A stretch of DNA of 64,000 bases from Coniferiporia sulphurascens (taxonomy: Eukaryota; Basidiomycota; Agaricomycetes; Hymenochaetales; Hymenochaetaceae): NCBI GenBank assembly GCA_002794785.1, contig NBBA01000014.1:248001-312000 (forward strand), written 5' to 3'. Below the pieces are notes generated by a model, which was not told where the DNA came from, ran no database searches, and worked only from the letters and a program-made list of their open reading frames with translations. Below, piece by piece: positions 44,092 to 64,000 of this stretch. How positions within the stretch are numbered: position 1 is the stretch's first letter; every line of letters starts with the position of its first letter. The position numbers and the translations under genes are program-made.

Positions 44092-44357
44092 TCATGGACT
44101 GGACCTCAGCTCCTGAACCATCTGCTCAATAGTCTGTGCACCATTCGATTCACTGAACAGGCTGGCTCCATGATATATCTTCCAAGTGAACCTGTTGTTC
44201 TCCTTGTTGCTTGTGTTGATTCTGACTGTGTATCCCATGTTCGCCAGTCCTATAAGTTATTGCACAGTTGAGATTACTGCCAAATTGTAATAATTCAGGT
44301 GTACTTACTGGCTTTCTGGGCCTCCAGTTGCTGAGTGATTGTCTGAGTCCTAGGCAT
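44092..44357 (-). CDS. Small repeated gene family, copy 1 (68 aa)
   Basis: Two exons, 44309-44357 and 44092-44249, with a 59-nt intron (GTAAGT...TATAG). The product starts MPRTQTITQQLEAQKARLAN and ends QMVQELRSSP. It is small, soluble and mildly basic. I predict helix, two strands around YTVRIN and FTWKIYHG, then a helix. No family recognised. Variants here: GASLF and TIEQ. Transcribed divergently from copy 2 across a shared 721-bp spacer, with TATAAATA at 44438-44445 (minus). Confidence 0.8.
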
Positions 44358-45078
44358 TTTAAAGTGAGAGGTGGAGTTTGTCTTTGCGGTAAAGAGTTGA
44401 GTGGGCTGATGAACTCCATAGTGTCGTCCAGGTACAGTATTTATACATCACTATGATCGGTTGAGATGCGTCGTCATATCCCTTACGCGAAAAAGCCTGA
44501 AAAACAATGTGGCAACGCGAAGTTGCCACAGGTATTTCAAATGTAGTATGCTAGGGCTATATCTTCAAACATGTCCGAATCGAGTGCTGATGTGCAGTAC
44601 CGAATAACTTTGCAGCTGAGCTAGTCCTCTTCAATACACAGAGCTAGTTGCTATCAAAGGGGATTTGATCTTAGATCAAACACGATTTTTAGACTTTGCC
44701 ACATGTACTTTGCTGGTCCCAATCGAAATTTGAGATTCATGCACTAGCACTGAAACTGGCTTTGCCACATTTCGAAGACATACTCAATCGTGAAGAAGGG
44801 ATTAGTACAATGATGATACACATTGCTTACTGAAATAGGCTAAGATTGCTGATGCATTGACGCCAAAGGTGAGCTAACTCCAAAATATGTCCCAATTTTT
44901 ATTCTGGAACACATTGTGGCACCTTGCTGCCACATTGTCTCTTAGGATTTATCGCGCGATTGGGATGGTGCATTTCAGCTCATGTTGGTGATGTATAAAT
45001 AGTAGGCCTTGATGGCACTTCGGAGGACATCAGCTCATTCAACTCTATCGCTTCAAAGACAAACTCAACTCTCGCATA
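44358..45078. promoter_or_regulatory. Bidirectional spacer with two TGTGGCA/TGCCACA dyads
   Basis: Dyad 1 at 44508-44530 has perfect 9-bp arms TGTGGCAAC and GTTGCCACA around 5 bp, and lies 62 bp from the TATA box of copy 1. Dyad 2 at 44915-44934 (TGTGGCA-N6-TGCCACA) lies 59 bp before TATAAATA at 44994-45001 of copy 2. Additional GCCACA half-sites lie between. Each TATA box is about 80-85 bp from its ATG. Confidence 0.8.
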
Positions 45079-45351
45079 ATGCCCAGAACTCAGACAATCA
45101 CTCAGCAACTGGAGGCCCAGAAAGCCAGTGAGTACTCTTGGCATCTAGAAATATCATTTTAACAGTAGGTTCTAATTACGCGGCTCTTGATAGGACTGGC
45201 GAACATGGGATATACAGTGAGAATCAACACGAGTAGCAAGGAGAACAACCGCTTCACTTGGAAGATATATCATGGAGCAAATCTGTTCAGTGAATCAAAT
45301 GGTGCGCAGACACTTGAGCAGATGGTTCAGGAGTTGAGGTCCAGCCCGTGA
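45079..45351 (+). CDS. Small repeated gene family, copy 2 (68 aa)
   Basis: Exons 45079-45127 and 45194-45351; 66-nt intron GTGAGT...GATAG. Same protein as the family, with NTSSKEN in place of NTSNKEN. It converges with copy 3 across the central repeat. Intron sequence is of the longer 'type II' (with AATATCATTTTAACAG), shared with copies 8 and 9, while the exons match copy 1 and others. Confidence 0.8.
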
Positions 45352-45670
45352 ACGTGCGGTATAAATATACGGCTAGACCCCACTGCGATGTGTATTAGAA
45401 TACACTTCATAAATAGATCCATCTGTCCGAATTCAACTGAGCTAGCCGCAGTAAGGGTTAGTGTTCAAAAGTCAAGACGAGATAAAGTTCCGTTGTATTA
45501 TGAGTCGTGTGATTATATGGTAGGCTTCATAAGCCGTATTACGGAGGTTACAGTAAATCCAAATCTATTGTGTCCCTTGTACACGGCCTCCGGAACCAGG
45601 AGTTCGTGTACATCATGGCAGGACGCACTTGTTCGGTTCCTTGACGGGCATGATACGTCTAGGAATAGTG
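45352..45670 (+). repeat. Left arm of near-perfect inverted repeat
   Basis: Reverse complement of about 46330-46647, nearly identical from the small-gene stop to about GGTTCCTTGAC. With exon 2 of copies 2 and 3 the arms reach about 465 bp. The arm encodes an open frame on each side (start about 45388 and 46611) that is identical because of the repeat; no evidence that it is a gene. Confidence 0.85.
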
Positions 45671-46329
45671 TCCTATTGCTAGGCTCGACGTGATGTGAGC
45701 AAGGCCCTGAAAGAATTTCAGAGGGTCGCTAATAAACGCGCGGGGTATCAGCCAGGGGCACAGAAAAAAGCAAAGCCGGACTCAGATTACGTAACGACAG
45801 AGCTGAGATGACTGAACTCGACCGGGCTCAGAGGACTGACGCCAGTAGTCGTCGTTGCTGTTGTCAGCGATGACGATGGCGATGGCGAGAAAGCAAGAGA
45901 AAAGGGCGGGTGATTGTGGAGAAATAGCTTGTTCTCAGCCTTGGTGAGGTGATGCAATGGGAAATGACAGTAAGCGGTGCTGCCGAGCATCCGCTTGAAT
46001 CCCCCAAATGGCCGAGGCTCGCACACCCTCCATAATTGCCTTGTCCATATCTCTCGCTCATGTCTATTGTGTTGTGGCCGGAGCAGCCAGCACGATGTGT
46101 CTGTCGTCGTTGTTCGCTCACAGACAAATCACAGACGCGATGTAGTACGCAAGCCGCGAGTTGGACGCGTCGTCGTGACGCACTCAGACTAGCCTGAGTG
46201 TGTCCGCGGCGGCATTCGGCATCCATCGGCGTCTCTCGCCCCGCCACTCGCCAGCCGACGTCGTCAGACAAGGATTCATCTTACAAAGCCCTGCTCACAT
46301 CACGTCGAGCCTGGCAGTGGGACATTATT
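45671..46329. repeat. Central repeat with inverted termini (copy 1 of 3)
   Basis: Ends are imperfect inverted repeats: CTCGACGTGATGTGAGCA-GGCCCTG on the left and its counterpart CAGGGC.TGCTCACATCACGTCGAG on the right. The middle is GC-rich with GAT/GAC trinucleotide runs. Related copies: 58094-58720 (same orientation) and 62285-63040 (inverted). No transposase ORF. This looks like a non-autonomous TIR element, but the family is unknown. Confidence 0.7.
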
Positions 46330-46647
46330 CTTCACCGTATCATACTAGTACCTGTCAAGGGACCGAACAAGTGCGTCCTGCCATGATGTACACGAACTCC
46401 TGGTTCCGGAGGCCGTGTACAAGGGACACAATAGATTTGGATTTACTGTAACCTCCGTAATACGGCTTATGAAGCCTACCATATAATCACACGACTCATA
46501 ATACAACGGAACTTTATCTCGTCTTGACTTTTGAACACTAACCCTTACTGCGGCTAGCTCAGTTGAATTCGGACAGATGGATCTATTTATGAAGTGTATT
46601 CTAATACACATCGCAGTGGGGTCTAGCCGTATATTTATACCGCACGT
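46330..46647 (-). repeat. Right arm of near-perfect inverted repeat
   Basis: Inverted partner of 45352-45670. Confidence 0.85.
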
Positions 46648-46913
46648 TCACGGGCTGGACCTCAACTCCTGAACCATCTGCTCAAGTGTCTGCGCACCAT
46701 TTGATTCACTGAACAGATTTGCTCCATGATATATCTTCCAAGTGAAGCGGTTGTTCTCTTTGTTACTCGTGTTAATTCTCACTGTATATCCCATGTTCGC
46801 CAGTCCTATAAGTTATTGCACAGTTGAGATTACTGCCAAATTGTAATAATTCAGGTGTACTTACTGGCTTTCTGGGCCTCCAGTTGCTGAGTGATTGTCT
46901 GAGTTCTGGGCAT
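46648..46913 (-). CDS. Small repeated gene family, copy 3 (68 aa)
   Basis: Exons 46865-46913 and 46648-46805; the 59-nt intron is identical to that of copy 1, though the downstream flank matches copy 2. That mosaic suggests gene conversion. Coding frame intact to QELRSSP. Confidence 0.8.
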
Positions 46914-47487
46914 TATGCGAGAGTTGAGTTTGTCCTCGAAGCGAAAGAGTTGCCAGTGAATGAGTTGATGTACTCCAAAGTGCCATCAGGGCCTACTATT
47001 TATACAACTCCAGAACCTACTAAAGGCCAGCGTTAGAGCGATCTCAATCTTCGTGAGGGAAAATAAATGTAACAGTATGTGCCGCAATGTGTTTCAAGCG
47101 GAAACGGGATTCAAAGTCTTAATTTGGAGTTAAAATCGTCTTTAGCATTGGTATACACTAGACGGTGTGGCGGGTCTAGCTTTTTTCTAGCGCTCACTCC
47201 GCATCACCATTGCACATTTAGATTAAATGGCACGTTTCTTAGCTTGTGCCACATTGTCGTTGCTAGTCCAATTTGAGCTTGGAAGAAGTGAAAATGTCTT
47301 TGACATAAAAACGGGGCAAAACTGCCAGTGGGCATAATACACAACAGGCAAAGGCAAACTGCGTAACCCTGTACACCATTTTCGAAACGCGTTTTGTTGT
47401 GGATAACAACAGTGACACACGTCGTGGCAACATTTGCCCCGCCAGTCTTTTTTGTCAATTCCAATTGCATTACCCTCCGCATAATAC
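46914..47487. promoter_or_regulatory. Upstream region of copy 3 with degenerate dyad
   Basis: TATAAATA (minus) at 46997-47004. 63 bp upstream, at 47068-47086, the sequence TGTAACA-N5-TGCCGCA is a decayed form of the dyad intact at copy 6 (59476). The rest (47100-47487) matches 59500-59898 and holds GTGCCACATTGTC half-sites. Confidence 0.65.
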
Positions 47488-47850
47488 ACCAGGTACTTCT
47501 GGTGGCGAATCATCAAGAGGATGTGGAAGAACGTTCGATTCTTAAGGCTCACGAAGACAGACTGTACGCATGCGGATACGTCTATGGGAGATAAGTCGAG
47601 GGAAATTACGGAAAGAGACAGCTTAGAGGAGAGGCATGCGCCAGAAGGTCTTACACTCGGACATGTTACTTCCGACTCGGACGATACACCAATCGATCTT
47701 GTCTTCGTTGACTTTATTGAGACACAGCTCTTGGAGATCCTATATTTAGTGTCCGACGGAGTTAATTTTACTTCCACAAACGGAAAATCCTTCAGTCCCT
47801 TCCTTTCAAGTCAGATTCAGGAGCTCAGAAATAATTATGCCTTGCAATGA
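47488..47850 (+). pseudogene. 3' fragment of the phosphatase gene, decayed
   Basis: Matches the last two exons of the gene at 40378: NQVL.., EERSILKAHEDRLYACGYV, then [21 protein letters not shown]. In-frame stop after GYVYGR, and the segment covering the last intron plus SCPGIGDD is deleted. Confidence 0.85.
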
Positions 47851-48364
47851 ACGTCTATTACAATGTCCCAGGGCTCATTGATTTTTCGTGGCTTGGATTA
47901 TGTGCAGATCCACATGATCGGCGTGCTTAGTAATTACATGATCGCCGTTTCAGGCAAAATGACGTGCCAGTAAGTACTTTCTTCGTTCGCTACGGTAATT
48001 GGAGTTATAAAAATTGGCTGCTATTATATATGGAGGATAATGAGTGAAATATAGTCTGAGGCCCAGGAGGGACAAACGCGAATTATGGGACTGGGCACCG
48101 GCGACCATACATGTATATACTTACACGTTGTAACGTTGACTATATGCTCAGCTCGATGAATTTCGACTAAGGATGAAATTAGTTAGAGCCTGCCTGCCTC
48201 CTGTACCATCGGACATTGACTCTGTCTAGGTGTGCATCTCTTGCGATTAAAATCCATTGCACGGGCACCTCGTCACATTTCTATTCATCTTTGGTTACAT
48301 AGTGGTTTATGGCTACGGGTCATATACCATATACCATTACTAACTCTTTGTTACCACAGTCTCT
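47851..48364. repeat. Duplicon flank (copy of phosphatase downstream DNA)
   Basis: Corresponds to 43116-44091, with deletions. No gene. Confidence 0.65.
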
Positions 48365-48633
48365 TCATGGACTGGACCTCAGCTCCTGAACCATCTGCTC
48401 AAGTGTCTGTGCACCGTTTGATTCACTGAATAAATTGGCTCCATGATAAATCTTCCAGGTGAACCTGTTGTTCTCCTTGTTGCTTGTGTTAATTCTGACC
48501 GTGTATCCCATGTTCGCCAGTCCTGTCGATTATGACGCACTTAGGATTAATAGTAAGTCGTAAACAAATGTCAGGTGCACTAACTGGCTTTCTGTGCCTC
48601 CAGCTGTTGAGTTATTGTCTGAGTCCTAGTCAT
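48365..48633 (-). CDS. Small repeated gene family, copy 4 (68 aa)
   Basis: Exons 48585-48633 and 48365-48522; 62-nt intron with GTTAGT donor and a sequence unlike those of the other copies. Second residue is Thr (MTRTQT). Coding frame intact. Confidence 0.78.
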
Positions 48634-49374
48634 TTTATGAGAGTTGGCTTTGTCTTTGTGTGGAAGATTCGAATGGGCTGGTGTACTCCAAAGTATCATC
48701 CAAGTCAGTATTTATACATTATGAGCATGGGCTGAGATGCTCCATCTCGGTCCTTTCTTGAAGGGTACTAGGAAACAATGTGGCGGCATTGTACCGCTGG
48801 CGCAATGCGCTGAGTGAAACATGGTGTATCCTTTTTTTCGCAGCTAGCCTAGTTTGAAACCACTGTGCCACGGTATACAGAAGCCTTGACCTATTTTTAT
48901 GCATAATGTTCATCACCATTAGGCTAACTCCTTCCTACGATCGGATTTGTTTTCGGCATGTGGCAAAGGTAGTTTTAGCGCTAGCGCATGACTTTCAGAC
49001 TTTGATCGGGGTTAGCAAAGATGATGCGGCAAAGTCTAACAATCGTGTTTGATCTAAGACCAAATCCCCTTTGATAGCAGTTAGCTCCGTGTATTGAAAA
49101 GGAATAGCTCAGCTGCAAAGTTGTTCGGTGCTGCACATCAGCACTCGAATCGGACATGTTTGAAGATATAGCCTAGCATACCACATTTGAAATACCTGTG
49201 GCAACGTCGTATTGCCACATTGTTTTCCAGACTTCCTCGCGTAAGGGCTATGGTGGAGCACCTCAACCGATAATTGTGATGTATAAATACTATACCTGGA
49301 CGATACTATGGAATTCATCAGCTCATTCAACTCTTTACCGCAAAAACAAACTCCACTCTCAAGAAGCTCACAAA
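48634..49374. promoter_or_regulatory. Bidirectional spacer of copies 4 and 5
   Basis: For copy 5, dyad TGTGGCAA-N7-TTGCCACA at 49197-49219 lies 62 bp before TATAAATA (49282-49289). For copy 4, TATAAATA (minus) is at 48709-48716. The half-site TGTGGC at 48779 sits at the expected 62-bp distance, but its right arm is decayed. Part of this spacer is inverted relative to 44358-45078. Confidence 0.7.
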
Positions 49375-49640
49375 ATGCCTAGGACTCAGACAATTACTCA
49401 GCAACTGGAAGCCCAGAAAGCCAGTAAGTACACCTGAATTACTATAATTTGACAGTAATCTCAACTATGCAATAATTTATAGGACTGGCGAACATGGGAT
49501 ACACAGTCAGAATCAACACGAGCAATAAGGAGAACAACAGGTTCACCTGGAAGATCTATCATGGAGCCAATCTATTCAGTGAATCAAACGGTGCACAAAC
49601 GATTGAACAGATGGTTCAAGAGTTGAAGACGAGCCCTTAA
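49375..49640 (+). CDS. Small repeated gene family, copy 5 (68 aa)
   Basis: Exons 49375-49423 and 49483-49640; 59-nt type I intron. C-terminus QELKTSP, stop TAA. Many third-position differences from other copies (for example ACCTGGAAGATCTATCATGG against ACTTGGAAGATATATCATGG) with the protein hardly changed. Confidence 0.8.
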
Positions 49641-50290
49641 ATATACCGATAAGCTTTAAGTGGTAGGGAACTAGGGCGTAATGCATAATAGACCGCCGAT
49701 CCTACAAATATATTCTTCTTGACCCAATTTTTGTGATTTACATTGTCTGATCTATCTGGATAAGTGACGGGCGATATGTTAGCTATATTAGTGGAGTTGA
49801 TAAGTGACGGAAGGGATTATTAGGCCCATCCTCAACGTATGGTTCGTATGCGTACTGCACAGTGGTGCTTCCCTACAAGTTTTAAGTCGTAGCGAATTAG
49901 TTCCGCTGGTAGATCCGATGCACTAATCGGTGCTTCAGATAACTATATATTCAAGTGAAGGAACTTGAAGCAATTAATGCTCGATTCTGACTACTTAAGA
50001 CCCAAATTGAAGGCACGACGACACGCTTTCGTCGCTGAGCTTAGATTATTTGTGGATTTGCAAATGATCGACGCTCGTACTCGTCAATTAGGCCAAGTAC
50101 TCTGAACATCTTTGGACGGAAGTTTTTATAGACGTAAGAATCGATATATACAGTATAAACTAGGTACTCATAAATTTATTTAGCTTTCTTTATATTACTT
50201 AGCATATTTGGCGGGTAGATACTGGAGTTGGTTCTGCTAATTTATTCTAAGTAATAAATACTCCGGCACATGTTCACAAAATGATTCCAG
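49641..50290. other. AT-rich intergenic region
   Basis: No gene; not obviously part of the duplicons. Confidence 0.5.
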
Positions 50291-53068
50291 CTACACTATA
50301 CTCTCGCTGGCGATTTCCCCCTTTTTCTCTGAGTGGCTAAGTACGGGAACTTCCACGTTTCGCCTCATGCCATCCATGACCTGTTTAGCCTCGCGTGCAA
50401 AGAACGACTTCTCCCGGAGCACAGGCCCGTAGCGGATGAATAGGATAGGGATGGGAATGAGACCGAGGGAAAGGAAGCCAAAAAGGGAAACTATTATTCG
50501 TGAGTGGCGATGTGAGCTGGAACAGTCGCAACGCTTTAGAAAAAAGAGACACTCACCTCCCCATGTCGTTCCCAGGTTTTTAATAATAGGTTGCGCAACG
50601 ACGGGGAAAAAGGACGCAACAATGGATCGTGCGAGGGTGTTTGATGCTGTCGCGCTGGACGCATAAATCTGGTACGTACGGGAACAGCTGGTACGGAATT
50701 ATAAATATCGAAATGACCCGATAATGCTACGAAGTCGACTCACTATCCCAAGAACGTGTAAAACTACGTACGAAAAGTTAGAGATGAAGGAGCCTGTAGG
50801 TGAGTGTGCATGGAGGACGCACTATAACCAGCATAGAATACCCGAAGAATATACCTGCGAGTGCAGGAGAGATCCAATGAACATTTCCGCGGCTCGTCCT
50901 TTTGGGGAAAAAGAGGCGTGGCATTGAGTGAAAGCGAGGGTATCTGGAAAGTTATGTCTTACCAAGCGAACCAGAATAATGATATTGGCATGAGTACGCT
51001 AAAAGTAGGCGCGTTAGTTTACATTCACGCTTGCGATTCGCAAATGAGTTTGCTGACCAACCAATAAGAGCGACCTTTAGGCCGGCCTCCGGAGCATCGG
51101 CAGGGGTCCCTGTCACTGGGGGATCGACAAAGGGAATCGAGATTTTCCGTGATAGATGCGTTACAGGACCCATGGTCAGGAGGCAAATGAACATTCCGAT
51201 CATCAGGCCTATGAAAGGAAGACCACCGAGTTGAAAGGAAATTTGGTTCTAATACAAAAAAACGACGTCAATGGGCCTGACTCTCTAATAAGGATGGCCT
51301 ATACTGACCTGCTCCACGAAGACGACAGGGTAAACCTCAAAGAAGAAACTAGTGTGCGATATAAATGTCAGTTGCTATCGCCTGCCTGCAGATCAAAACC
51401 TTACTAAATAATGCTGTAAGCCAGAGACACCCAAACAGCCGCGCCAATGATGATAGGCTCGACAATTAACATCACTTAAGTGCGCTGTAAGCCTCAATTC
51501 TGCCAAGATAAACGATACACAGTCTACTCACTGATAGGCCTTCCAATATGGCTTTGAAGGAACTCTCTTTTTGTCATCGTGTGCAATTCGTGTGCCGCGT
51601 ATGCGTTCCCGCCACGTTCCGCTCTGATTTTCCTGGCACGCCGTGCCAGAATGGTGAGCCCGTGTGTCTCTGGGACAGCGAAGACTAAGGGCCAGACGGC
51701 GATCACGAAGAACCAATGGACGCGGATGACCCAAAGTCTTTTCCAAATTGGCAAAGAAACCGATGAGAGGATTGAACAAATTATATGCGTCCGGTACACA
51801 TACCCGTGTGTTAAGTGTGCAGCAACAAAGAAACCGACGATGGAGCCAACGATGGGACCTGACAATGGACAGAAGGCGCTAGAGAACGTTCTGGTCACAA
51901 ATACAGCACCCAACATATTGAACCCAGATGCTTACTAATATCCAATAGCTGTACATATGTGAATTCCAGTCCGACAGCATTTGAAAATAGTCACTTAGTC
52001 ACTTACCCTTCTGAAGTTTCTGAGGCGTTGAGGCATACATGCTAGTACACGTTCAACGATAAGGACACCCACCCAGTACCGCGGAGGAAATTAACGCACT
52101 CAGAGATAATACCGCTTCCACTGATAGCGCGTAAGTATAAAATGACAACGGACTGGAACATTACTACTCACTTATTCAAAGCACACGCCGAGCAGCATCC
52201 CGCGAGGAACCGGACTGAGCGTGAGAAGTCAATAACCCAACGATATATAAGGCGGACACATTGCTAGACTGACAAATCATGATGACGACTATGTTATTGA
52301 CCCATGCGGACGGGGCGATCACAGCTGCACAAAGAGCAGTTAATAATTGAGGCGCTGAGGTGATTATTGCATAGTCTTCAAACCTATCAGCAAAGGCCAC
52401 GAAATCGTATATGCCAGTTTCCGGCCGTAAATTTCACTCATCGGACCTGAAATGGGGTCATTAGACATGTGGAGTGTAGCAAGGACAAACATGAAGCGTA
52501 CCCCCTAAGTTTAGAATCAAGAAAATATTAGAGAATCCATCTAAACATCAAAAAGGGGATTTACATACATAGAAGAGGGCCAAAAGCGAATCCCAGGACA
52601 TATACAGTTAGCCCCACACTTGCAACGTCGGCATTCACCCCAAACATTTCTTGAACTTGATTTTCTCCTGGGGCCTACAGGAGGCGTTGTTCAAAGGTCC
52701 TTAGCTCGATTGTGCAGAAATCGCGGCGGTTCGACTAAGCTTACATATGATGATGAGCCAAAGACGCTATGTAAAGAAGCATATCAGACTGGTATCAAAA
52801 GCGTGACGGTACACTGCAGATTGGACTGGATAATGGAAATTACGACTCACGAGCAGAACGACAAGACACATAAAATGGCGATAACAGCGTTCTTCTTCAG
52901 TGTCGACCAATTCTTTGGGTCTTCGGGATCATCTTCGCCGAACGTTACGAGTTCGACTGAGTCTACCGATTTTCCCAATGACACGGGTTCTCGGGAGGCT
53001 TCAGAATACGGGCCAACTGCATGTGCGTCGTCCAACGTGACCTCTTCGGACAGCCTAGTTCCAGCCAT
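50291..53068 (-). CDS. MFS transporter, DHA1-like (drug/polyamine:H+ antiporter type)
   Basis: Starts MAGTRLSEEV. The cytosolic N-terminus carries GEDDPEDPKNWS, typical of fungal DHA1 transporters. Exons traced from the 5' end: 52851-53068, a 22-nt exon (SVFGSSSY), one with EMFGVNADVASVGLTVYVLGFAFGP, 52384-52446 (PMSEIYGRK) and then WVNNIVVIMI, followed by RFLAG. Further on are PIVGSIVGFFVA and WFFVIAVWPLVFAVPETHG with ILARRARKIR, near 51550-51870. The last exon (FLSLGLIPIPILFIRYG, stop at 50291) is clear. Exons from about 50500 to 51500 were not fully joined, so intactness is likely but unproven. A plasma-membrane exporter is expected. Confidence 0.8.
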
Positions 53069-56000
53069 GGCGAGCCCTAACGAGAATACCTGGGCAGTAC
53101 GAACGAGGCGATACAGAGTGCAAAGGCAGAGGCACAATTTTTGACGGTTTGCATGGTCAGTACATATACAGAAGAACGGGTAAGCAGTAGCTCGGCGAAG
53201 TCCATGCCCGAACAGCCGAATCAGGCCAAGATTACTAACAACATGGCGCATGATTGAGATTAACGTGTATGATGCGCCATATCTCGGCCTTATTTCCGGT
53301 GTTGATTGTGTGGCATAGAATCTCGGCCATCATCACGCAAGAATGAATAGGCTGAACGGGACTTCGCTAAAACCAGTCCACCATTATTGTACACACTTTT
53401 TGCAGAGGTAAGCTAGAATTTAGTCACTTGGTCGAAACATCGCCACGGTCCACAATTAATGTGGGATCCCGGAAGGAACGGTATTCGGTGACCAAGGGAA
53501 AATAGACCTGAATCCGCGTTATCTCTGTCAGGGCCTCGGGACTCGGGAACAGTGGCAAAGCCGGACCGGAAGAGCAACCGGTAGGTCATCGATTGACCAA
53601 GCAGCTTCGGGTTACGGGTGTCCCAAGCCCAATGATATTATGAGGCATAGGCGCGTCCTGATCGTATCGCCAGCCAGCCGGAGAACCGATGACTTGAGGG
53701 ACAATATTAATGCAAATGTTCTTAGCACTGAGTGAAAAGAGAACAGACAAGAGGAATGACGTTTTCGCGGAAGAAAATCGCGTATAAGTTTTCCCGTTTT
53801 GGAATCGGAGCTGCAACTCGCGGCTTCAACCGGCCGTGAGGCTGTCTACCACATGGTTCTCATTACTGTTCAGTGCTTCAAGCCACTAGCATCAAGAATA
53901 ATCGAGCCCTTTGTCGCGAAAAATATCGTGGAACCAAGTACTAGTAGGCGTATTCACCTTTCTTTCCCGGTTCACATAGTATGTATTATACACCTTTGTG
54001 TGCTAGGCGTCCCTTCCCCGCGTTACTTTCAAAATTGGCAAGGCCCAAATTCCTCAGCAAAAGTCCTCAATATACGTACAATACACACGCAAGTCACTTA
54101 CTCGTCTTAGAGAGACATCCGAGTCGGGTTTCCGAGTCGGGGTGTCCGGGTTTCCTCGTGTCGTACTAATACATGCCCGGGACCGGCATGCCCGGCCTTT
54201 CGGGCAGGATGTGGTAATTTCTCACCTTCTTACTTGACACCAAAATAATTCCCGTGCCTGAGGATAGAAACCGAGCAGCAATACTATAAGTGCACTTCAT
54301 GGAAAAAGATGCTATAGCACCCCAGTTCCGGTATCAACGGTCGCTCTTGGCTACGACTTCCGAGTCGCAAGCTCCGGGCACTATGCAGTGTGCACATCAT
54401 TTACCAATATTATGATTTCTTTCCAGAGTTTGCCGTGCACATTTATCTCCAGCATTATCTCGGCACCTTAGTGCGTGTTAACAAATGTTCGGCCCGCGTG
54501 AAAGGTAAAGGTTTGCCGACTTACGACGACGTCGGCAGCATTCAGCAAATGAGACAAGGGCGTCACTAACAGAGGCTACTTAATCCACGCTCCTTGCTTT
54601 GGCGCTACATGTACCACGAATCCGAGTCCGACGTTCACGGTATCATAGACATGAACGGATGCCTCCCCGACGGAACCCAGCTTTCAGCTCCTGCGCAGTA
54701 ATGGATGAACACACAGCGCTGACCTGCATCCGAGTCGGCGTCATTTCCGATTACTGACAGTTAATTATGTAGTAAGCATCACCCCCACTGGCAGCAGCGG
54801 ACTCGGAACGCTCGAAAAGAGCCCTTACCTCAGGCTCCATTTCTCCCCTTTCTTAATTACTTGTTGGAGGGCCTTGAATCAAGGGTATCTAGCCCGCAGT
54901 AAATCGGCATCTTAATCGGTATCCCTAAATGCGCTGCTCTTGCGCTTAATTTTAAACCAGCGGGAGTCAGGACTCCTCATGTTCAGAGCCAGTGAGACCC
55001 GCTGGAAATAAGTATGTAGTATCAAAGCTAAATCATGTTGCAACATGGTGGTACGTGGACGACCGTCCGACTCGCCTTACAAGCCCCGTTCGTATTTCCG
55101 GTACCGTGACTTGGACGTTACTACGCGCATGGTGATTTGAACATAGAAACCGAAGCCTCCGGGTCGTGAAACCGGACGCATTCCGAGTCTGTGGACATTA
55201 AAGCGACGATACCCGTCTCCCGCCACCGTTTCTTGACCCGATGGTGCTCAGGCTGTGCGAGCACGAGACTACTGCGGTATCAACCATCGCCAGGGACGGA
55301 GTCAATTGATAGTAAGTAGACGCAACGCCCACTCCATGAGGACGAGGCAGTGTAAATCAATAGATCAGATCTCCTTCGAACGAAAGCCAAGAAAGAGAAA
55401 CGCGACGCAGCGTCACAGTGCGCTTCTCGATCTCGAAAGAGTGGTCTGCCGCGACGAGACCCAGTAGTACAAGTACACAGGAGGAACAGTTCTAGGAGTA
55501 GAAGCCTCACTCCTTCCGAAGTCCGCAAGATCAAAATAACAGAATACCTTCCATATGCTGTATCAGCGACTCTTGCCCGAGAAGGCCTGGCGGCCGTACC
55601 TGCAAAGGCCGCACGTACGGAGGGTGCGGAGCCACACCGGCCCAAGCAACGACGAGGGCGTAACGTGAAAAAAACGATCAGATTGAAATCAGTGTTCTAC
55701 AAAATACCAACTCTAGTAGTAAATACATGCCGAGTGGGGACGCCGCCACGCCCGGATCCATGAACCAAAAGGTCTGTTTGTCAGTGAATTGGGTGGAGGA
55801 ATAGTATGCTAGGAGGAGACGACTGCCGTGAGGAGAGGAGAGGGAACAAGAATAGGTGGAGATAAGAGATAGGGGACGAGATGGACAGAGAGAAGAGGGG
55901 AGCCAGCAAGAGAAGTACTGAAAACTGTAATCCGGAAGACGTATACAAAAAGCGAAGCGTCATTGAACGTCGTCCTTGCAATATTTAGCCGGTACAGGTC

Positions 56001-56161
56001 TCGTACGAAGAGGTGATAAGGAAATTTCGTGCCTTGAACTTTAAAAGCTCAAGGAGGCGTCGGACAGAGCATTTCAATTCGTAAGTGCCAGAGGCAGAGG
56101 CGATTAGCAAAGTCGAGTCCAATAGTTCAGGGCATTAAAAAACGACGAAAAAAGTCCCATT
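53069..56161. other. 3.1-kb intergenic region with a CCGAGTC cluster
   Basis: No supported gene. Between 53540 and 55189 the heptamer CCGAGTC (either strand) occurs eight times. A GC hairpin (GCCCGGCCTTTCGGGC) lies near 54190-54206. An open plus frame at about 55354-55767 has no ATG. The end is the 3' flank of the membrane-protein gene. Confidence 0.5.
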
Positions 56162-58062
56162 TTACATGAAAAGAGGAACGGGGATGTGCGGTGGGTCGAA
56201 AGTAGCGGCGGAACCCTCCGGACGGCTGCTGTCCTGCGGCGGGAGGCCATCTATGCTATGGCTTCGTTCGGCTTCAGAGGGCACCGACGCGTCGTTAGCG
56301 TCAGCTTGAGCAACTGACGTTTGTGGCAGACCGTCTGGGGTGGCTTCAGCATCACCTCGCGCGGCACTCGGCCCTTCTTCCGTCGTCGGGCTTTCGAACA
56401 CAGGCGGCGGATCGAGCGCAAGCTCGTGGCGAGAGTGCTGCGCATGCTCAATCGCATCACGCCCGTACGGCACGCCAAAGCGACCAAGACTCTCACGCGA
56501 CGAGATGAGCTTGATCTGCTCGGCCGTCGGCCCGCCGCGGGGGTAGCGAATCTCCGTACGCACAAGCGTGTGCGAGAGCGGCGCGGAGATTGCACCCGCC
56601 GCGAGTGAAAGCGACAGTGCGGACGGCGAGGTCAGGTTAAGGTTCGAACGCGACGCCCCAGCATGGTGCCCCGAGCCGGAATTGAGCGTGTTCGTTGAGC
56701 GCTGACGCGAGAGCGTGCGGAATGGCAGCCCGAAGCCGAGCGTCGAGCCTGACCCGCCGGACTGCGAAGACCGATGCCGCGAGTGTTGTACGCCAGAGCT
56801 AGGAGGAGCATTAGGGAGCCGTGTAGGTGACGCGGGCGGGTCATTGAGCGTAACGTAAGACGCGGCCGCCGGATTTGACGCTGCCTCCGCTGACACGTTT
56901 GATGTGCGTGCCACATCAGGTAGTTCCGGTGTCATCACGCCGGATTGCCCACCGCGTAAGTATGGAGTAGATGATGAGCCACTACCATTACGCAGGTGTA
57001 GGATATTCGAGACGCGAGACGCCAGGCGAGAGCGGTGACGGGCATACCGGGGAGACTCGGGAGTTGCGGGCAGTGAAGTCGCGATGGGTGGCGGAGTGGT
57101 AGGAGGTTCCGGAGAGTCTACAAGCCCAGGGGGATTGATCGTCGTCGAATGGCGACGCTCCGTTTCGTAATCCGGAGGGGCCCCTGATGGGACGTCCGAC
57201 GTTCGTCGCATGAGAAGGGAGCGACTGTCCGAGGTATCCTGCGAACCCCGCTCATGATTGGCCTCGCCTGGTCTTGGAATGAGCTCCGCCATAGAAGCAT
57301 TCGCGTTCCCGTTCTCAGTGAGATTCATCGCAGATGCTGCGAATGAAAGACTTTGTACAGACGTTGGCATGCCCTCCATCGGGGCAGGGCCATAAGGATT
57401 TGGGTCGTGCAGTCCGACAGAATCATGCTCGTCTTCCTGATCTTCCGCTTCGCGAGCCTCAGCAATGGCGTCCGACGCATCCATCTCTTCTGGGCCACGG
57501 AAGATGACGAGCTCCTGGTCGCCTGGCTCCTTCATGTACGCGGGTAGAGACGTCGTAGACATTTGACTCGGGGTCCGCCGGGTCCGTCGCGGCGTTCGCG
57601 CAGGTCGTATAGTCGTACCTGAACGCCCATTTGCACCCGCATTGTTTCCGCCGACGAGTTGTGAGGCGGTCACCTCACGGGCGCCTGTCGTGTTTCCTAC
57701 TTGCGAGGCCCGCGACGCCATACCGCGCAGACGTTCCCTGACGCTTGTCCGTGTCCATACGAAACAGAAAGCAGCGAGTAAAGCTAGTACGACTACTAAG
57801 GCAGGGACCTACGGAAGGTAGAAAACAAACATGTAGCGAGCACGTCGAGTAGCGATAAGGGTTGGGCACTTACCCACACCTGCGGTGATATTCCGCCTGA
57901 GGTCTGATCTGGGCTTGGACCGTTGGAGACCCCCTGTTGACGCCGCGTAAGAGGAGCTGCCCATACACCCGAGACGTTGCTGGTGATCAGGACGGCAACC
58001 GACAGCCCTGCGCACCATCGTCGACGACAGCGACGCTTGCACCGCGTGGATGCATGGGTCAT
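56162..58062 (-). CDS. Single-pass membrane protein with Ser/Pro-rich cytosolic tail
   Basis: Two exons (57874-58062 and 56162-57808; 65-nt intron GTAAGT...CGTAG) give 611 aa. The first exon has a basic start (MTHASTRCKRRCRRRW) and a hydrophobic stretch (CAGLSVAVLITSNVSGVWA) acting as signal peptide or anchor. Next is a short Ser/Pro ectodomain, then a clear transmembrane helix (VPALVVVLALLAAFCFVW) and a ~520-residue disordered tail with TPxxP and SxxS patterns. No family recognised; the layout resembles fungal surface sensors or adhesin-like anchors, but that is only shape. A repeat begins about 32 bp upstream of the ATG. Confidence 0.78.
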
Positions 58063-58093
58063 GGTGTAAGCGAAGATGGGAAAACCCGGCAAT

Positions 58094-58720
58094 CCAGAGA
58101 GTCGTTGATAAAAGCGCAGGGTATCAGCCAGGGGCTCAGAAGGAAGCAAAGCCGGACTCAGGTCACGTAACGACGAAGCTGAGATGACTGAATTCGACCG
58201 GGCACAGAGGACTGACGCTCGTAGTAGCCGTCGCCGTCGTCGTCGTTGCTGTCGTCGGTGATGGCGATGGCGAGAAAGCAAGAAAAAAAGGGCGGGTGAT
58301 TGTGGAGAAATAGCTTGTTCTCAGTCTTGGTGAGGTGATGCAATGGGAAATGACAGTAAGCGGTGCTGCCGAGCGTCCGCTTGAGTCCCCAAATGGCCGA
58401 GGCCCGCACAAAACGCCCTCCATAATTGCCCTTGTCCACATTGCTCGCTCATGTCTATTGTGTTGTAGCCGGGGCAGCCAGCACGATATGTCTCTCGTCG
58501 TCGAGCCACGACGTGGTGAGCAGCGAGCAGGCAGATCACGGACACGATGTACGCAAGCTGCGAGCGTGACGTACTCAGACTAGCGTGTCCGCTACGGCGT
58601 TCGGCACATATCGGCCTCTCTCGCCCCGCCACTGGGCCGCCAGTCGCCAGCCGACGTCGTCAAACAGGAACCCCAGCTTACAGGTCTTGTTCACATCACA
58701 TCGAGCCTAGCAATGGGACA
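58094..58720. repeat. Central repeat (copy 2 of 3), left end truncated
   Basis: Same orientation as 45671-46329. Homology starts at CCAGAGAGTCGTTGATA and lacks the outer ~40 bp of the left terminus and the whole left arm with its gene copy. The right end reads TTCACATCACATCGAGCCTAG. Confidence 0.75.
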
Positions 58721-59069
58721 TTAATTCTCGACGTATCACCAAACAAGTGCGTCCTGCCAGGATGTACATGGATTCCTGGTGCTGCTGGCATTAGGCGACG
58801 GCGCGACGTTGCGAATGCCGGAGGCAGTGTACAAGGGACACAACAACAGATTTGGATCTAACCTACGTAATACGGTTTATGAAGCTTACCGTGCAATCAC
58901 ATGACACAATGCAACGGAACTTTATTTCGTCTTGAATTTTGAACACTGACCTTTGCTGTAGCTCCCATCTCGAAATTAGCACAGTTGGATTCGGAGAGAT
59001 GGATCTATTTATGAGGTGTATTCTAATACACATCGCAGTGGAGCCTAACCGCATATTTATACTACCCGT
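58721..59069 (-). repeat. Inverted-repeat arm beside copy 6
   Basis: Corresponds to 46330-46647, with more substitutions and a short insertion near 58775-58830. Confidence 0.7.
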
Positions 59070-59329
59070 TTACGGGCTGGACCTCAACTCCTGAACCATC
59101 TGCTCAAGTGTCTGCGCACCATTCGATTCACTGAACAGATTGGCCCCATGATATATCTTCCAAGTGAAGCGGTTGTTCTCCTTGTTACTCGTGTTGATTC
59201 TGACTGTGTATCCCATGTTCGCCAGTCCTATCAAGTACCGCTTAATTAGAAAAATAAACTTGCTAGATGCCAGGAGTACTTACTGGCTTTCTGGGCCTCC
59301 AGTTGAGTGATTGTCTGAGTCCTAGGCAT
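59070..59329 (-). CDS. Small repeated gene family, copy 6 (67 aa)
   Basis: Exons 59284-59329 and 59070-59227; 56-nt intron. One Gln codon is missing (ITQLEAQ against ITQQLEAQ), a 3-bp in-frame deletion. The stop is TAA instead of TGA. Otherwise intact. Confidence 0.78.
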
Positions 59330-59898
59330 TTTGTGCGAGCTGTATTTGTTTGAAGAAACGGAGAGCTGATGAGTTGATGCAATCAATGTCACTGTCTATC
59401 CTCGTACTTATACAACTCCAGAACCTGCTAAAAGCAAGCGGTAGAGCGATCGCAGTCCTCGTGCGGGAAACTAAATGTGGCAGTATGTGCCACAACGTGT
59501 TTCGAGCAGAACCCGGATTCAAAGTCTTAATTTGGAGCTAAAGTCATCTTTAGCATTGGCAAACACTAGACAATGTGGCGAGTCTAACGTTTTCTAGCAT
59601 TCGCTCTGCTTCACCATTGCGCATTTGGAAAATGGCACGTTTCTCATTTTGTGCCACATTGTCTTTGCTAGCCCAATTCAATCTCGGAAGAGTTTTGTCA
59701 TAAAATGAAAATGTCTTTGACATAAAAAAATGGGGTAAAATCGGGCACAATGCGCAACGGGCTAAAGCAAACCGCATAACTCGGCACACTAGTTTCGAAA
59801 CACGTTTTGTTGTGGATAACAGCATTGGCACACGTCATGACAACATTCCACAGCCAAAGTTTTCGTCAATTTCAAATGTAGTATCATCTGCATAGAGA
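59330..59898. promoter_or_regulatory. Upstream region of copy 6 with dyad
   Basis: TATA-like GTATAAGTA (minus) at 59405-59412. Dyad TGTGGCA-N5-TGCCACA at 59476-59494, 63 bp from it. The remainder matches 47100-47487. Confidence 0.7.
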
Positions 59899-60416
59899 AC
59901 CAGGTACCTCCGGTGACGAATAATCAAGAGGATAAAGAAGAACGTGCGATTCTAAAGACTCGCGAAGACGAATTGTACGCGCGCGGATACGTCCAAGGGA
60001 AACAAGTCGAGTGATTAAGGTGCACTACGAAGGGAGACGTTGCAATGGAGAGGCATGCGGCAGAAGGTCTTACACTTGGATGTGTTACTCCCGACTCGGA
60101 CATTGATCGGTTTCAGTATTTCATGCTTCCGTCTATTCGCTGTATTCTCCCTTTCTCCCCTAAGTCGTGCCCGGGAATTAGAGGCGACATCCCTCATGCC
60201 CCTATTAATTCTATTAACCTTGTACCTTCGTTGGTCCGAACTTTCCTAACGCCACGGACGATACACCAATCGATCTTGTCTTCGTTGACTATATCGAGAC
60301 ACAGCTCTTAAGGATCCTAATTTCAGTGTCCGATAGAGTTAATTTTACTTCCACAAACAGGAGATCCTACGGTCCTTTCCTTTCTAGTCAAATTCAGGAA
60401 GTCTAGAGTTAACATG
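59899..60416 (+). pseudogene. 3' fragment of the phosphatase gene, decayed (second)
   Basis: Keeps more than the fragment at 47488, including remnants of the last intron and the codons for SCPGI..DIPHAP and [18 protein letters not shown]. Broken by stops (after GKQVE) and frameshifts. Confidence 0.85.
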
Positions 60417-60938
60417 CCTTGCAATGAACGTCTATTACGGTCTTCCGAGACTTATCAATTTTTCTGTGGCTTGGATTATGTGCCGATCCCTATGATCGAC
60501 GTACTTAGTAATTACATGATCGCCGTTTCAGGCAAAATGACGTGCCAGTAAAGATGTGTAAGTACGTTCTTCGTTCTACTGTATTGGTGTGATTAAGTTG
60601 GCCGCTATCATATATGGGGGAGGATGAGCAAGATATATTCTGAGGCTTAAGAGGGATAAATGAGAATCATAGGACTGGGCGCCGCGACCATATCTTACAC
60701 GTTGTTATGTTGACTGGATGCTCAGCTCGATGAGTTACGACTAAGGATAGACTTGGATGGAGTCTGCCTGACTCCTGGATCACTGGACACTGGCTCTGTC
60801 AAGGTGTGCATCTCTTTCGACTCGGATTCATTGCACGGGCATCTCATCACATTTCTATTCATCTTTGGTTACATAGTGGTTTATGGCTACGGGTCATATA
60901 CCATATACCATTACTAACTCTTTGTTAGCGCAGTCTCT
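60417..60938. repeat. Duplicon flank
   Basis: Copy of 43116-44091 / 47851-48364. No gene. Confidence 0.65.
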
Positions 60939-61210
60939 TCATGGACTGGACCTCAACTCCTGAACCATATGCTCAAGTGTCTGTGCACCATTTGATTCAC
61001 TGAACAAGTTGGCTCCATGATAAATCTTCCAGGTGAATTTGTTGTTCTCCTTGTTGCTCGTGTTGATTCTGACTGTATATCCCATGTTCGCTAGTCCTAT
61101 AAATGATGGCGTAGTAAGTATTACTGAGAGAATGAGCTCAATATACGTCAGAGGTACTTACTGGCTTTCTGAGCATCCAGTTGCTGAGTAATTGTCTAAG
61201 TCCTAGGCAT
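60939..61210 (-). pseudogene. Small repeated gene family, copy 7 (nonsense codon)
   Basis: Exons would be 61162-61210 and 60939-61096 (65-nt intron). Codon 5 is TAG (MPRT-stop) where all other copies have CAG. Further changes in an otherwise open frame: QLDAQ, NNKFTW and TLEHMV. TATA box and dyad are intact. Confidence 0.85.
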
Positions 61211-61935
61211 TTTGTGAGCTTTGTGAGAGTAGAGAAGGTCTCTGCGATAAGGAGTTGAATGAGCTGATGAACAACATAGTGTCGTTTAAGTACAGTATTT
61301 ATACATCATCTCTATCGGTCGAGATGCGTCACCATAGCCCTTGCGCGAAAAAGCCTGAAAAACAATGTGGCAACACGAAGTTGCCACAGGTATTTCAAAT
61401 GTAGTACGCTGGGCTATATCTTCAAACATGTCCGGATCGAGTGATGATGTGCAGTACCGAATAATTTTGCAGCTGAGCTAATCCTTTTCAATACATGGCG
61501 CTATCTGCTATCAAAGGGGATTTGGCCTTAGATCAAACACGATTGTTAGACTTTGCCACATTGACTTTGCTAGTCCTAATCGAAGTTTGAGATTCATGCA
61601 CTAGAACGGAAACTGGCTTTGCCACATGCCGAAGACATATTCGATCTTGAAGAAGGGATTAGTACAATGATGATACACATTGATCACTGAAATAGGCTAA
61701 GATTGCTGATGCATTGACGCCAAAACTAAACTAAATCCAAAGTATGTCCCGATTTTCATTCTGGAACACATTGTGGCACATTGCTGCCACATTGTCTCTT
61801 AGGACTTATCGTGCGATTGGGATGGTGCATCTCAGCTCATGTTAGTGATGTATAAATAGGAGACCTTGATGACATTTTGGAGTACATCAACTCATTCAAC
61901 TCTTCCGCTTCAAAAGCAAACTCAACTCTCGCAGA
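61211..61935. promoter_or_regulatory. Bidirectional spacer of copies 7 and 8 with two dyads
   Basis: Collinear with 44358-45078. Dyad at 61366-61388 (TGTGGCAAC-N5-GTTGCCACA), 62 bp from TATAAATA (minus) 61296-61303. Dyad at 61772-61791 (TGTGGCA-N6-TGCCACA), 59 bp before TATAAATA 61851-61858. Confidence 0.8.
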
Positions 61936-62208
61936 ATGCCCAGAACTCAGACAATCACTCAGCAACTGGAGGCCCAGAAAGCCAGTAAGTACTCTTGGCG
62001 TCTAGCAATATCATTTTAACAGTAGATTCTAATTGCGCGATTCTTGATAGGACTGGCGAACATGGGATATACAGTGAGAATTAACACGAGTAACAAGGAG
62101 AACAACCGCTTCACTTGGAAGATATATCATGGGGCCAATCTGTTCAGTGAATCGAATGGTGCGCAGACACTTGAACAGATGGTTCAGGAGTTGAGGTCCA
62201 GCCCGTGA
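61936..62208 (+). CDS. Small repeated gene family, copy 8 (68 aa)
   Basis: Exons 61936-61984 and 62051-62208; the 66-nt type II intron is identical by eye to that of copy 9. Intact family protein with NTSNKENNRFTWKIYHGAN. Converges with copy 9. Confidence 0.8.
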
Positions 62209-62284
62209 ACGGGCGGTATAAACATGGGGTTAGGCTCCGCTGCGATGTGTATTAGAATACACTTCATAAATAGATCCATGGGCT

Positions 62285-63040
62285 AGTGAGCAAGGCTGGG
62301 GTCCTTGTTTGACGACGAGTCGGTTGCGACTGGCGGGGCGAGTGAGGCCGATGTGTGCCGAACGCCGTCGCGGACACGCCGCTAGTCTGAGTACGTCACG
62401 GCTACGCGTCCAACTCATGGCTTGCGTACATCGCATCTGTGATCTGTCTGTGAGCTAACGACGAGACATATCGTGCTGGCTGCCCCGGCCACAACACAAT
62501 AGATATGAGCGAAAAATGTGGACCGTGACAAGGGCAATTCAGTAGAGGTTAACAAACTTGAAGTTACTTGTCACAAATTATTACACGATCCATTTATCGT
62601 TATCCCAAGACTTCTTGTGCTCTCCCTCTCGCTTATTCTTTCCACTCTGATATCACCTCCCCAGGGGAAAGAGAAAGAAAATCTCCCCTCGCGGGTTCAG
62701 CACTGTTTTAAGTGGACACTCGGCAGCACCGCTTACTGTCACTGGCATTTCCCATTGCATCACCACATCAAGCACTGAGAACAAACTATTTCTCCACAGC
62801 TACCCGCCCTTTTTTCTTGCTTTCTCGCCATCGCCATCGCCGACGACAGCAGCGCCGACGACTACAAAGCGTTAGTCCTCTGAGCCCGGTCTAGTTCAGT
62901 CGTCTCAGCTCCGAGTCTGTCGTTACGTGACCTGAGTCCGGCTTTGCTTCCTTCTGTGCCCCTCTGGCTGATACCCTGCGCTTTTATTAGCGACCCTCTG
63001 GAATTCTTACAAGGCCTTTCCCGCATCACGTCGAGCCTAG
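62285..63040. repeat. Central repeat (copy 3 of 3), inverted, with internal insertion
   Basis: Reverse orientation relative to the other two. About 190 bp of unrelated AT-richer sequence (about 62520-62710) interrupts it. Its right end joins TCACGTCGAGCCTAG and an arm toward copy 9. Confidence 0.72.
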
Positions 63041-63384
63041 TAATGGGTCATTGTTCCTCGACGTATCTTACCCGTCAAGGAACCGACTAGTGCGTCCTGC
63101 CAGGATGTACTGGCAATTTTTGCAGGCGACGCTGCAGGTGCCGGGGGCAATATACAAGGGACACAACAACATATTTGGATAAAACCTACTACATAATACG
63201 GTTTATGAAGTCTATCATGCAATCACACGACCCCATTATACAACGAAACTTTATCTCGTCTTGACTTTTAAGCACTAACCCTTGCTGCAGCTGGCTCAGT
63301 TGAATTCGGACAGATGGATCTATTTATGAGGTGTATTCTATTACACATCGCAGTGGAGCCTAACCGCATATTTATACCGCCCGT
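63041..63384 (-). repeat. Inverted-repeat arm beside copy 9
   Basis: Corresponds to 46330-46647 and 58721-59069. Confidence 0.7.
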
Positions 63385-63657
63385 TCACGGGCTGGACCTC
63401 AACTCCTGAACCATCTGTTCAAGCGTCTGCGCACCATTCGATTCACTGAAAAGATTGGCTCCATGATATATCTTCCAAGTGAAACGATTGTTCTCCTTGT
63501 TACTCGTGTTAATTCTCACTGTATATCCCATGTTCGCCAGTCCTATCAAGAATCGCGCAATTAGAATCTACTGTTAAAATGATATTGCTAGACGCCAAGA
63601 GTACTTACTGGCTTTCTGGGCCTCCAGTTGCTGAGTGATTGTCTGAGTTCTGGGCAT
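63385..63657 (-). CDS. Small repeated gene family, copy 9 (68 aa)
   Basis: Exons 63609-63657 and 63385-63542; 66-nt type II intron. Intact. Together with its upstream DNA it is the reverse complement of the copy 8 region. Confidence 0.8.
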
Positions 63658-64000
63658 TCTGCGAGAGTTGAGTTTGCTTTTGAAGCGGAAGAGTTGAATG
63701 AGTTGATGTACTCCAAAATGTCATCAAGGTCTCCTATTTATACATCACTAACATGAGCTGAGATGCACCATCCCAATCGCACGATAAGTCCTAAGAGAAA
63801 ATGTGGCAGCAATGTGCCACAATGTGTTCCAGAATGAAAATCGGGACATACTTTGGATTTAGTTTAGTTTTGGCGTCAATGCATCAGCAATCTTAGCCTA
63901 TTTCAGTGATCAATGTGTATCATCATTGTACTAATCCCTTCTTCAAGATCGAATATGTCTTCGGCATGTGGCAAAGCCAGTTTCCGTTCTAGTGCATGAA
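63658..64000 (-). promoter_or_regulatory. Upstream region of copy 9 with dyad; reverse complement of 61590-61930
   Basis: TATAAATA (minus) at 63735-63742 and dyad TGTGGCA-N6-TGCCACA at 63802-63821. The repeat runs off the window edge, so another divergent copy is likely outside. Confidence 0.75.

Follow-up and report, generated by a model that had tools for sequence, protein, structure and literature searches.

We analysed a 64,000-nt window of the genome of Coniferiporia sulphurascens (39.3 Mb, 31 contigs), namely positions 248,001-312,000 of contig NBBA01000014.1, labelled C14 below. The window contains most of a cluster of small orphan genes, nearly all 68 codons long, whose promoters carry an inverted pair (dyad) of the half-site TGCCACATT, reverse complement AATGTGGCA, upstream of a TATA box. 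We consider it probable, at about 0.68, that TGCCACATT is a transcription-factor site which, when paired 59-63 bp 5' of the TATA box, drives the orphan copies together. Observed directly are the pattern itself, its restriction to this cluster within the genome, and the retention of arms and distance amid mostly randomised sequence. Coordinates are those of the window, or window-equivalent beyond its end, and genes are named by the coordinate of their 5' end.

Seven exact dyads TGTGGCA-N-TGCCACA are present in the window, all at the coordinates given in the original prediction, and 100 dinucleotide shuffles of the window yielded no match. A dyad had been expected at each small gene; it is intact at seven of the nine genes in the window and at nine of the 11 in the cluster, and decayed at the remaining two. 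The predicted distance of 59-63 bp between the end of the TATA-proximal arm and the TATA box is found in all 11 copies: 62, 59, 62, 63, 62, 59 and 59 bp for the intact dyads in order of position, 63 and 62 bp for the decayed versions, which are indeed present at 47068 and 48779 (placed by hand), and 62 and 60 bp for the two copies beyond the window. The proposed spacer of 5-7 nt needs correction, because with 7-bp arms the spacers measure 5, 6 or 9 nt; the 9-nt class fits that range only when its arms are counted as 8-9 bp long. The spacers define three promoter classes: class A with 9 nt (44357, 49375, 61210 and 64383), class B with 6 nt (45079, 61936 and 63657, plus the decayed 48633) and class C with 5 nt (59329 and 66211, plus the decayed 46913). 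Four pairs of copies are divergent neighbours, each consisting of one class A and one class B copy. The dyads and TATA boxes in the window are:

44508-44530 (-), intact dyad, class A, spacer 9 nt, gene 44357(-), 62 bp to TATA
44915-44934 (+), intact dyad, class B, spacer 6 nt, gene 45079(+), 59 bp to TATA
47068-47086 (-), decayed dyad, class C, TGCGGCA-CATAC-TGTTACA, both arms altered, gene 46913(-), 63 bp to TATA, hand-placed
48779-48798 (-), decayed dyad, class B-like, AGCGGTA-CAATGC-CGCCACA, gene 48633(-), 62 bp to TATA, hand-placed
49197-49219 (+), intact dyad, class A, spacer 9 nt, gene 49375(+), 62 bp to TATA
59476-59494 (-), intact dyad, class C, spacer 5 nt, gene 59329(-), 63 bp to TATA
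61366-61388 (-), intact dyad, class A, spacer 9 nt, gene 61210(-) with a stop at codon 5, 62 bp to TATA
61772-61791 (+), intact dyad, class B, spacer 6 nt, gene 61936(+), 59 bp to TATA
63802-63821 (-), intact dyad, class B, spacer 6 nt, gene 63657(-), 59 bp to TATA
44438-44445 (-), TATAAATA box, gene 44357(-)
44994-45001 (+), TATAAATA box, gene 45079(+)
46997-47004 (-), TATAAATA box, gene 46913(-)
48709-48716 (-), TATAAATA box, gene 48633(-)
49282-49289 (+), TATAAATA box, gene 49375(+)
59405-59412 (-), TATAAGTA box, gene 59329(-)
61296-61303 (-), TATAAATA box, gene 61210(-)
61851-61858 (+), TATAAATA box, gene 61936(+)
63735-63742 (-), TATAAATA box, gene 63657(-)

The arms are kept where their surroundings are not. 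Between classes, nine promoters were compared in 27 pairs, with the decayed copies included and the near-duplicates 64383 and 63657 set aside (the start of copy 48633 was placed two bases too far upstream in this comparison, which affects its untranslated region only). Identity reaches 88% in the left arm, 90% in the right arm and 97% in the TATA box, whereas it amounts to 52% in the 60 bp upstream (51% when shuffled), 37% in the spacer (36%), 53% in the linker over all pairs (49%) and 57% further upstream (52%); the A-C and B-C linkers taken separately give 48% (50%) and 51% (49%). Columns anchored on the right arm score 0.90 within the arm and 1.00 at both of the TT positions that follow, as against 0.32 in the linker, the best 7-column window of which attains 0.38; the left-arm columns score 0.88 versus 0.29 upstream, with a best upstream window of 0.40. 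Arms and distance are thus retained while spacers and flanks vary, as had been claimed, and the full spacer identity that had been named as a sign of recent duplication is absent between classes, in which spacers and flanks differ. Recent duplication alone does not account for the dyads, given arms at 88-90% beside flanks and linkers near the shuffled level.

The same words emerge when one promoter per class (49375, 45079 and 66211; 220 bp each) is searched for common 7-mers: six are shared by all three, whereas 1000 shuffles gave 0.29 on average, and TGCCACATTGT includes five of the six. TGCCACA alone occurs six times in total in this trio, and no shared word in the shuffles occurred more than four times. 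Three other one-per-class trios share five 7-mers each, the shuffle control referring to the first trio only. A chance origin of the dyads is excluded by this excess and by their absence from the 100 window shuffles.

Within the genome the arrangement is specific to the cluster. The original prediction had named a genome-wide scan as a test, and the dyad proved not to be equally common in promoter settings elsewhere: in its exact form, with a spacer of 3-9 nt, it occurs 14 times, nine of them in the cluster (a reversed control pattern gave two). The other five all lie in repeated sequence belonging to two repeat families, and none of TATAAA, TATATA and TATAAG occurs in the proper orientation within 300 bp on either side of them. 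Two of the five sit in copies of one element, 84% alike, in the C1 copy of which the reading frame holding the dyad matches a reverse transcriptase (RVT_1, E 3.2e-8); the other three belong to a second repeat, common to C3, C11 and C20, which gave no Pfam match at the two loci scanned. One-mismatch dyads with a 6-nt spacer number 22, all outside the cluster (control 7 in all), and 19 of the 22 have the spacer of the reverse-transcriptase loci. The pattern TGTGGCA-N71-80-TATAAATA has all eight of its genome matches in the cluster (control 2), TGCCACA-N54-70-TATAAATA eight of 12 (control 3) and TGCCACATTGT nine of 18 (control 3). Therefore, no second target set is visible at this stringency.

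Two further candidates were rejected. A genome-wide repeat that carried the dyad into the promoters is not compatible with the five outside copies, which fall into two repeat families and have no TATA match within 300 bp. As to a known structured RNA, a search of the window against Rfam at gathering scores found none, and the dyad moreover lies 5' of the TATA box.

The unit of the element looks to be the half-site TGCCACATT rather than a rigid dyad. The 22.5-kb cluster segment contains 32 half-sites (TGTGGCA/TGCCACA): 18 in the nine dyads, 10 as single sites in the same promoters (eight of these inside the window) and four elsewhere. In the cluster, TGTGGCA is more frequent than any other of its 420 letter permutations (32 versus a mean of 2.7), and it occurs once in window positions 1-43000 (permutation mean 4.4); its one-base variants GGTGGCA, AGTGGCA and CGTGGCA are found 0, 1 and 3 times in the cluster segment. 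The five repeat loci hold 3, 3, 5, 5 and 3 half-sites per 9-10 kb, compared with 32 per 22.5 kb in the cluster, the background for these counts being 43 kb of the window and five repeat-bearing loci chosen for holding a dyad. The single sites in the window are:

44697-44769 (+), two single half-sites TGCCACA (44697, 44763), divergent promoter 44357/45079
47247-47253 (+), single half-site, upstream of 46913(-)
48959-48965 (-), single half-site, divergent promoter 48633/49375
59652-59658 (+), single half-site, upstream of 59329(-)
61554-61626 (+), two single half-sites TGCCACA (61554, 61620), divergent promoter 61210/61936
63967-63973 (-), single half-site, upstream of 63657(-), its companion lying just past the window end

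The centres of the two half-sites of a dyad are 16 bp apart in class A, 13 bp in class B and 12 bp in class C. The original prediction saw the operator of a dimeric factor: that the dyad is a selected protein-binding element is well supported, and a single rigid dimer is less so, because the spacing varies and single half-sites recur upstream. Variable spacing would rather favour two molecules, or a flexible dimer.

The genes themselves form a compact family. When the genome was searched with the 68-residue protein, 11 copies were found at E <=0.001, all within C14:292095-314469, which corresponds to window 44095 to window-equivalent 66469; the cluster thus spans ~22 kb and extends past the window end, with nine copies inside and two beyond it, at 64383 (+) and 66211. 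Every copy consists of two exons and one intron of 55-66 nt, and the coding length is 68 codons in 10 copies and 67 in one:

44092-44357 (-), orphan gene, class A promoter, 68 codons, two exons
45079-45351 (+), orphan gene, class B promoter, 68 codons, two exons
46648-46913 (-), orphan gene, 68 codons, mosaic: class C upstream, class B-like 5' untranslated region, class A-like intron
48365-48633 (-), orphan gene, 68 codons, class B-like promoter with decayed dyad
49375-49640 (+), orphan gene, 68 codons, class A promoter
59070-59329 (-), orphan gene, 67 codons, class C promoter
60939-61210 (-), orphan gene copy, stop at codon 5, likely pseudogene, class A promoter
61936-62208 (+), orphan gene, 68 codons, class B promoter
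63385-63657 (-), orphan gene, 68 codons, class B promoter

The stop at codon 5 is shared by two near-identical copies, 61210 and 64383, which are likely pseudogenes or N-terminally truncated and both of which have intact dyads. Synonymous divergence (dS) could be computed for 50 of the 55 copy pairs; non-synonymous divergence (dN) is zero in seven of these, and dN/dS lies between 0.01 and 0.13 in the remaining 43. As the ratio is low in all 43, the orphan genes are under selection: their coding sequence is strongly constrained, under purifying selection, with dS of up to 2.8 among copies at dN <=0.052 and <=8 non-synonymous differences. The protein family is seemingly old, constrained and lineage-restricted. 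A search of 5.8 billion proteins returned no homologue, though it requires shared 5-residue words and genes of this kind (small and spliced) are often unannotated. PF07411 (UPF0339/DUF1508) is absent from the Pfam scan listings of the orphan sequences, and a search of the genome for it gave no match with E <=1 (the control was positive in five of 14 genomes). Elsewhere in the window, the protein encoded at 31634-33001 (-) has its closest match in Coniferiporia weirii (84% identity, 71% query coverage), followed by Phellinidium, Phellopilus, Sanghuangporus and other fungi, among the best 120 of 205 matches.

Several repeats accompany the cluster. An inverted repeat with arms 45190-45648 and 46351-46809 (459 nt, 99%) surrounds a 702-nt spacer, and another with arms 61593-62279 and 63314-64000 (687 nt, 98%, 1034-nt spacer) runs to the window end; both point to recent palindromic duplication or gene conversion. 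Positions 42411-42830 form the 3' part of a gene with a match to the NAD nucleotidase C-terminal domain (PF21953, E 1e-35), and partial copies of this segment lie next to orphan genes at 47607-47973 and 60026-60551, and by eye also at ~1020-1520 of L005, the locus that holds copy 64383. Inside the cluster, 45719-46110 repeats sequence of 58095-58501, and relatives of 58600-59040 are found only in this region of C14, at no fewer than five further places (>=5).

How the promoters might work can be sketched from these sequence features. A sequence-specific factor, an activator encoded elsewhere in the fungal genome, would read TGCCACATT/AATGTGGCA. The TATA promoter of each orphan gene would offer it an inverted pair of sites 59-63 bp upstream of TATA (decayed in two of 11), plus one or two lone sites at a greater distance, which divergent neighbours share. 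Once the pair was occupied by two molecules of the factor, or by a dimer with a flexible linker, the transcription machinery would be recruited, and the copies of the family would be switched on together and co-expressed. CATTGT, which adjoins the half-site, resembles an HMG-box core.

The position of the site 5' of the TATA box fits either sign of regulation, and the paired site might instead bind a repressor that silences an amplified family, in which case the decayed copies would be escapees and intact sites on two likely dead copies would be understandable. We regard this as unlikely, since a proximal pair accompanied by upstream single sites is more usual for activation. It is likewise doubtful that we are dealing with a private regulatory loop, in which a cis-element confined to one locus, serving a lineage-restricted and constrained family, would be read either by a factor devoted to it or by the protein that the family encodes.

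A further possibility is that the dyads have no function and all descend from a single ancestral sequence, having persisted through recent duplication and gene conversion. Copies 59329 to 66211 are laid out as mirror images about ~62.8 kb, in three pairs of which two are nearly identical (the 98% inverted repeat described above belongs to this region), and not all copies are therefore independent. Gene conversion among copies has, to judge from the mosaic copy 46913, also taken place, which reduces the independent classes to three. Other observations likewise weigh against an interpretation of the element as a selected binding site. The A-B linkers are 61% identical (49% shuffled), so that randomisation is incomplete and some trace of common origin is kept, and the 5' untranslated region, at 65% versus 50%, is not fully randomised between classes either. 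Within classes the contrast is only modest, with arms at 87-90% and flanks plus linker at 76-80%, which probably results from recent divergence and the two decayed dyads. The integrity of dyad and gene is uncoupled, because the intact-frame copies 46913 and 48633 have decayed dyads while the two stop-bearing copies have intact ones. Finally, all comparisons of promoters and genes were made among copies within one genome of one species. Nevertheless, common descent alone is quite improbable: between classes the surroundings are at or near the shuffled level while the arms remain at 88-90% and the distance to TATA is steady at 59-63 bp, and conversion tracts that copied 7 bp twice and neither the spacer nor the flanks would be implausible. 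Autoregulation, in which the 68-residue protein would recognise the half-site and thereby control the family that encodes it, was one of the two options named in the original prediction. It would suit a private loop in that element and protein are both confined to the cluster, yet it is very unlikely and found no support in a partial fold model, which bears no confident likeness to any DNA-binding domain.

If TGCCACATT is indeed an activator site, the cluster provides a ready test case for an orphan family acquiring and keeping its own regulation. The working bases would already be visible, because the copies would serve as natural promoter variants, with three spacings, one mosaic promoter and two decayed dyads set in surroundings that are largely randomised. 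The cluster also draws attention to a small protein that is strongly constrained by purifying selection and that had no homologue among the proteins searched.

Among known systems, the NFI/CTF family of animals recognises the palindrome TTGGC-N5-GCCAA. The dyads resemble it as an inverted pair containing TGGCA and TGCCA, and differ in reading GTGGC-N7, N8 or N11-GCCAC, which departs from the NFI consensus. With a generic upstream activating sequence they share the position, a short motif at a set place 5' of TATA boxes. Closer in sequence are two elements of ascomycete yeasts, one typical of proteasome genes (PACE) and the other of sulphur-metabolism genes (Met31/Met32). The PACE element of Rpn4 in ascomycetes is GGTGGCAAA, and AGTGGCAACA is also bound in vitro by Rpn4 of S. 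cerevisiae (PMC526180). The core GTGGCA is shared, seven of the 32 cluster half-sites extend as TGTGGCAAA, and the arms of class A have the form TGTGGCAA or TGTGGCAAC. However, neither GGTGGCAAA nor GGTGGCA is present in the 22.5 kb of the cluster segment; the aligned arms begin with T on the left in 10 of 11 copies and, on the other strand, on the right in all 11; and the sites here form inverted pairs at an orphan gene family. The Met31/Met32 element of yeast is TGTGGC or AAACTGTGG (PMC1779545); its core TGTGGC is present in the intact arms, whereas the dyads lack the AAAC extension and the sites are paired. The likeness to Rpn4 and Met31 is a lead and not membership. As a kind, an upstream element with a putative factor is ordinary; what sets it apart is its confinement to one locus together with a strongly constrained orphan family.

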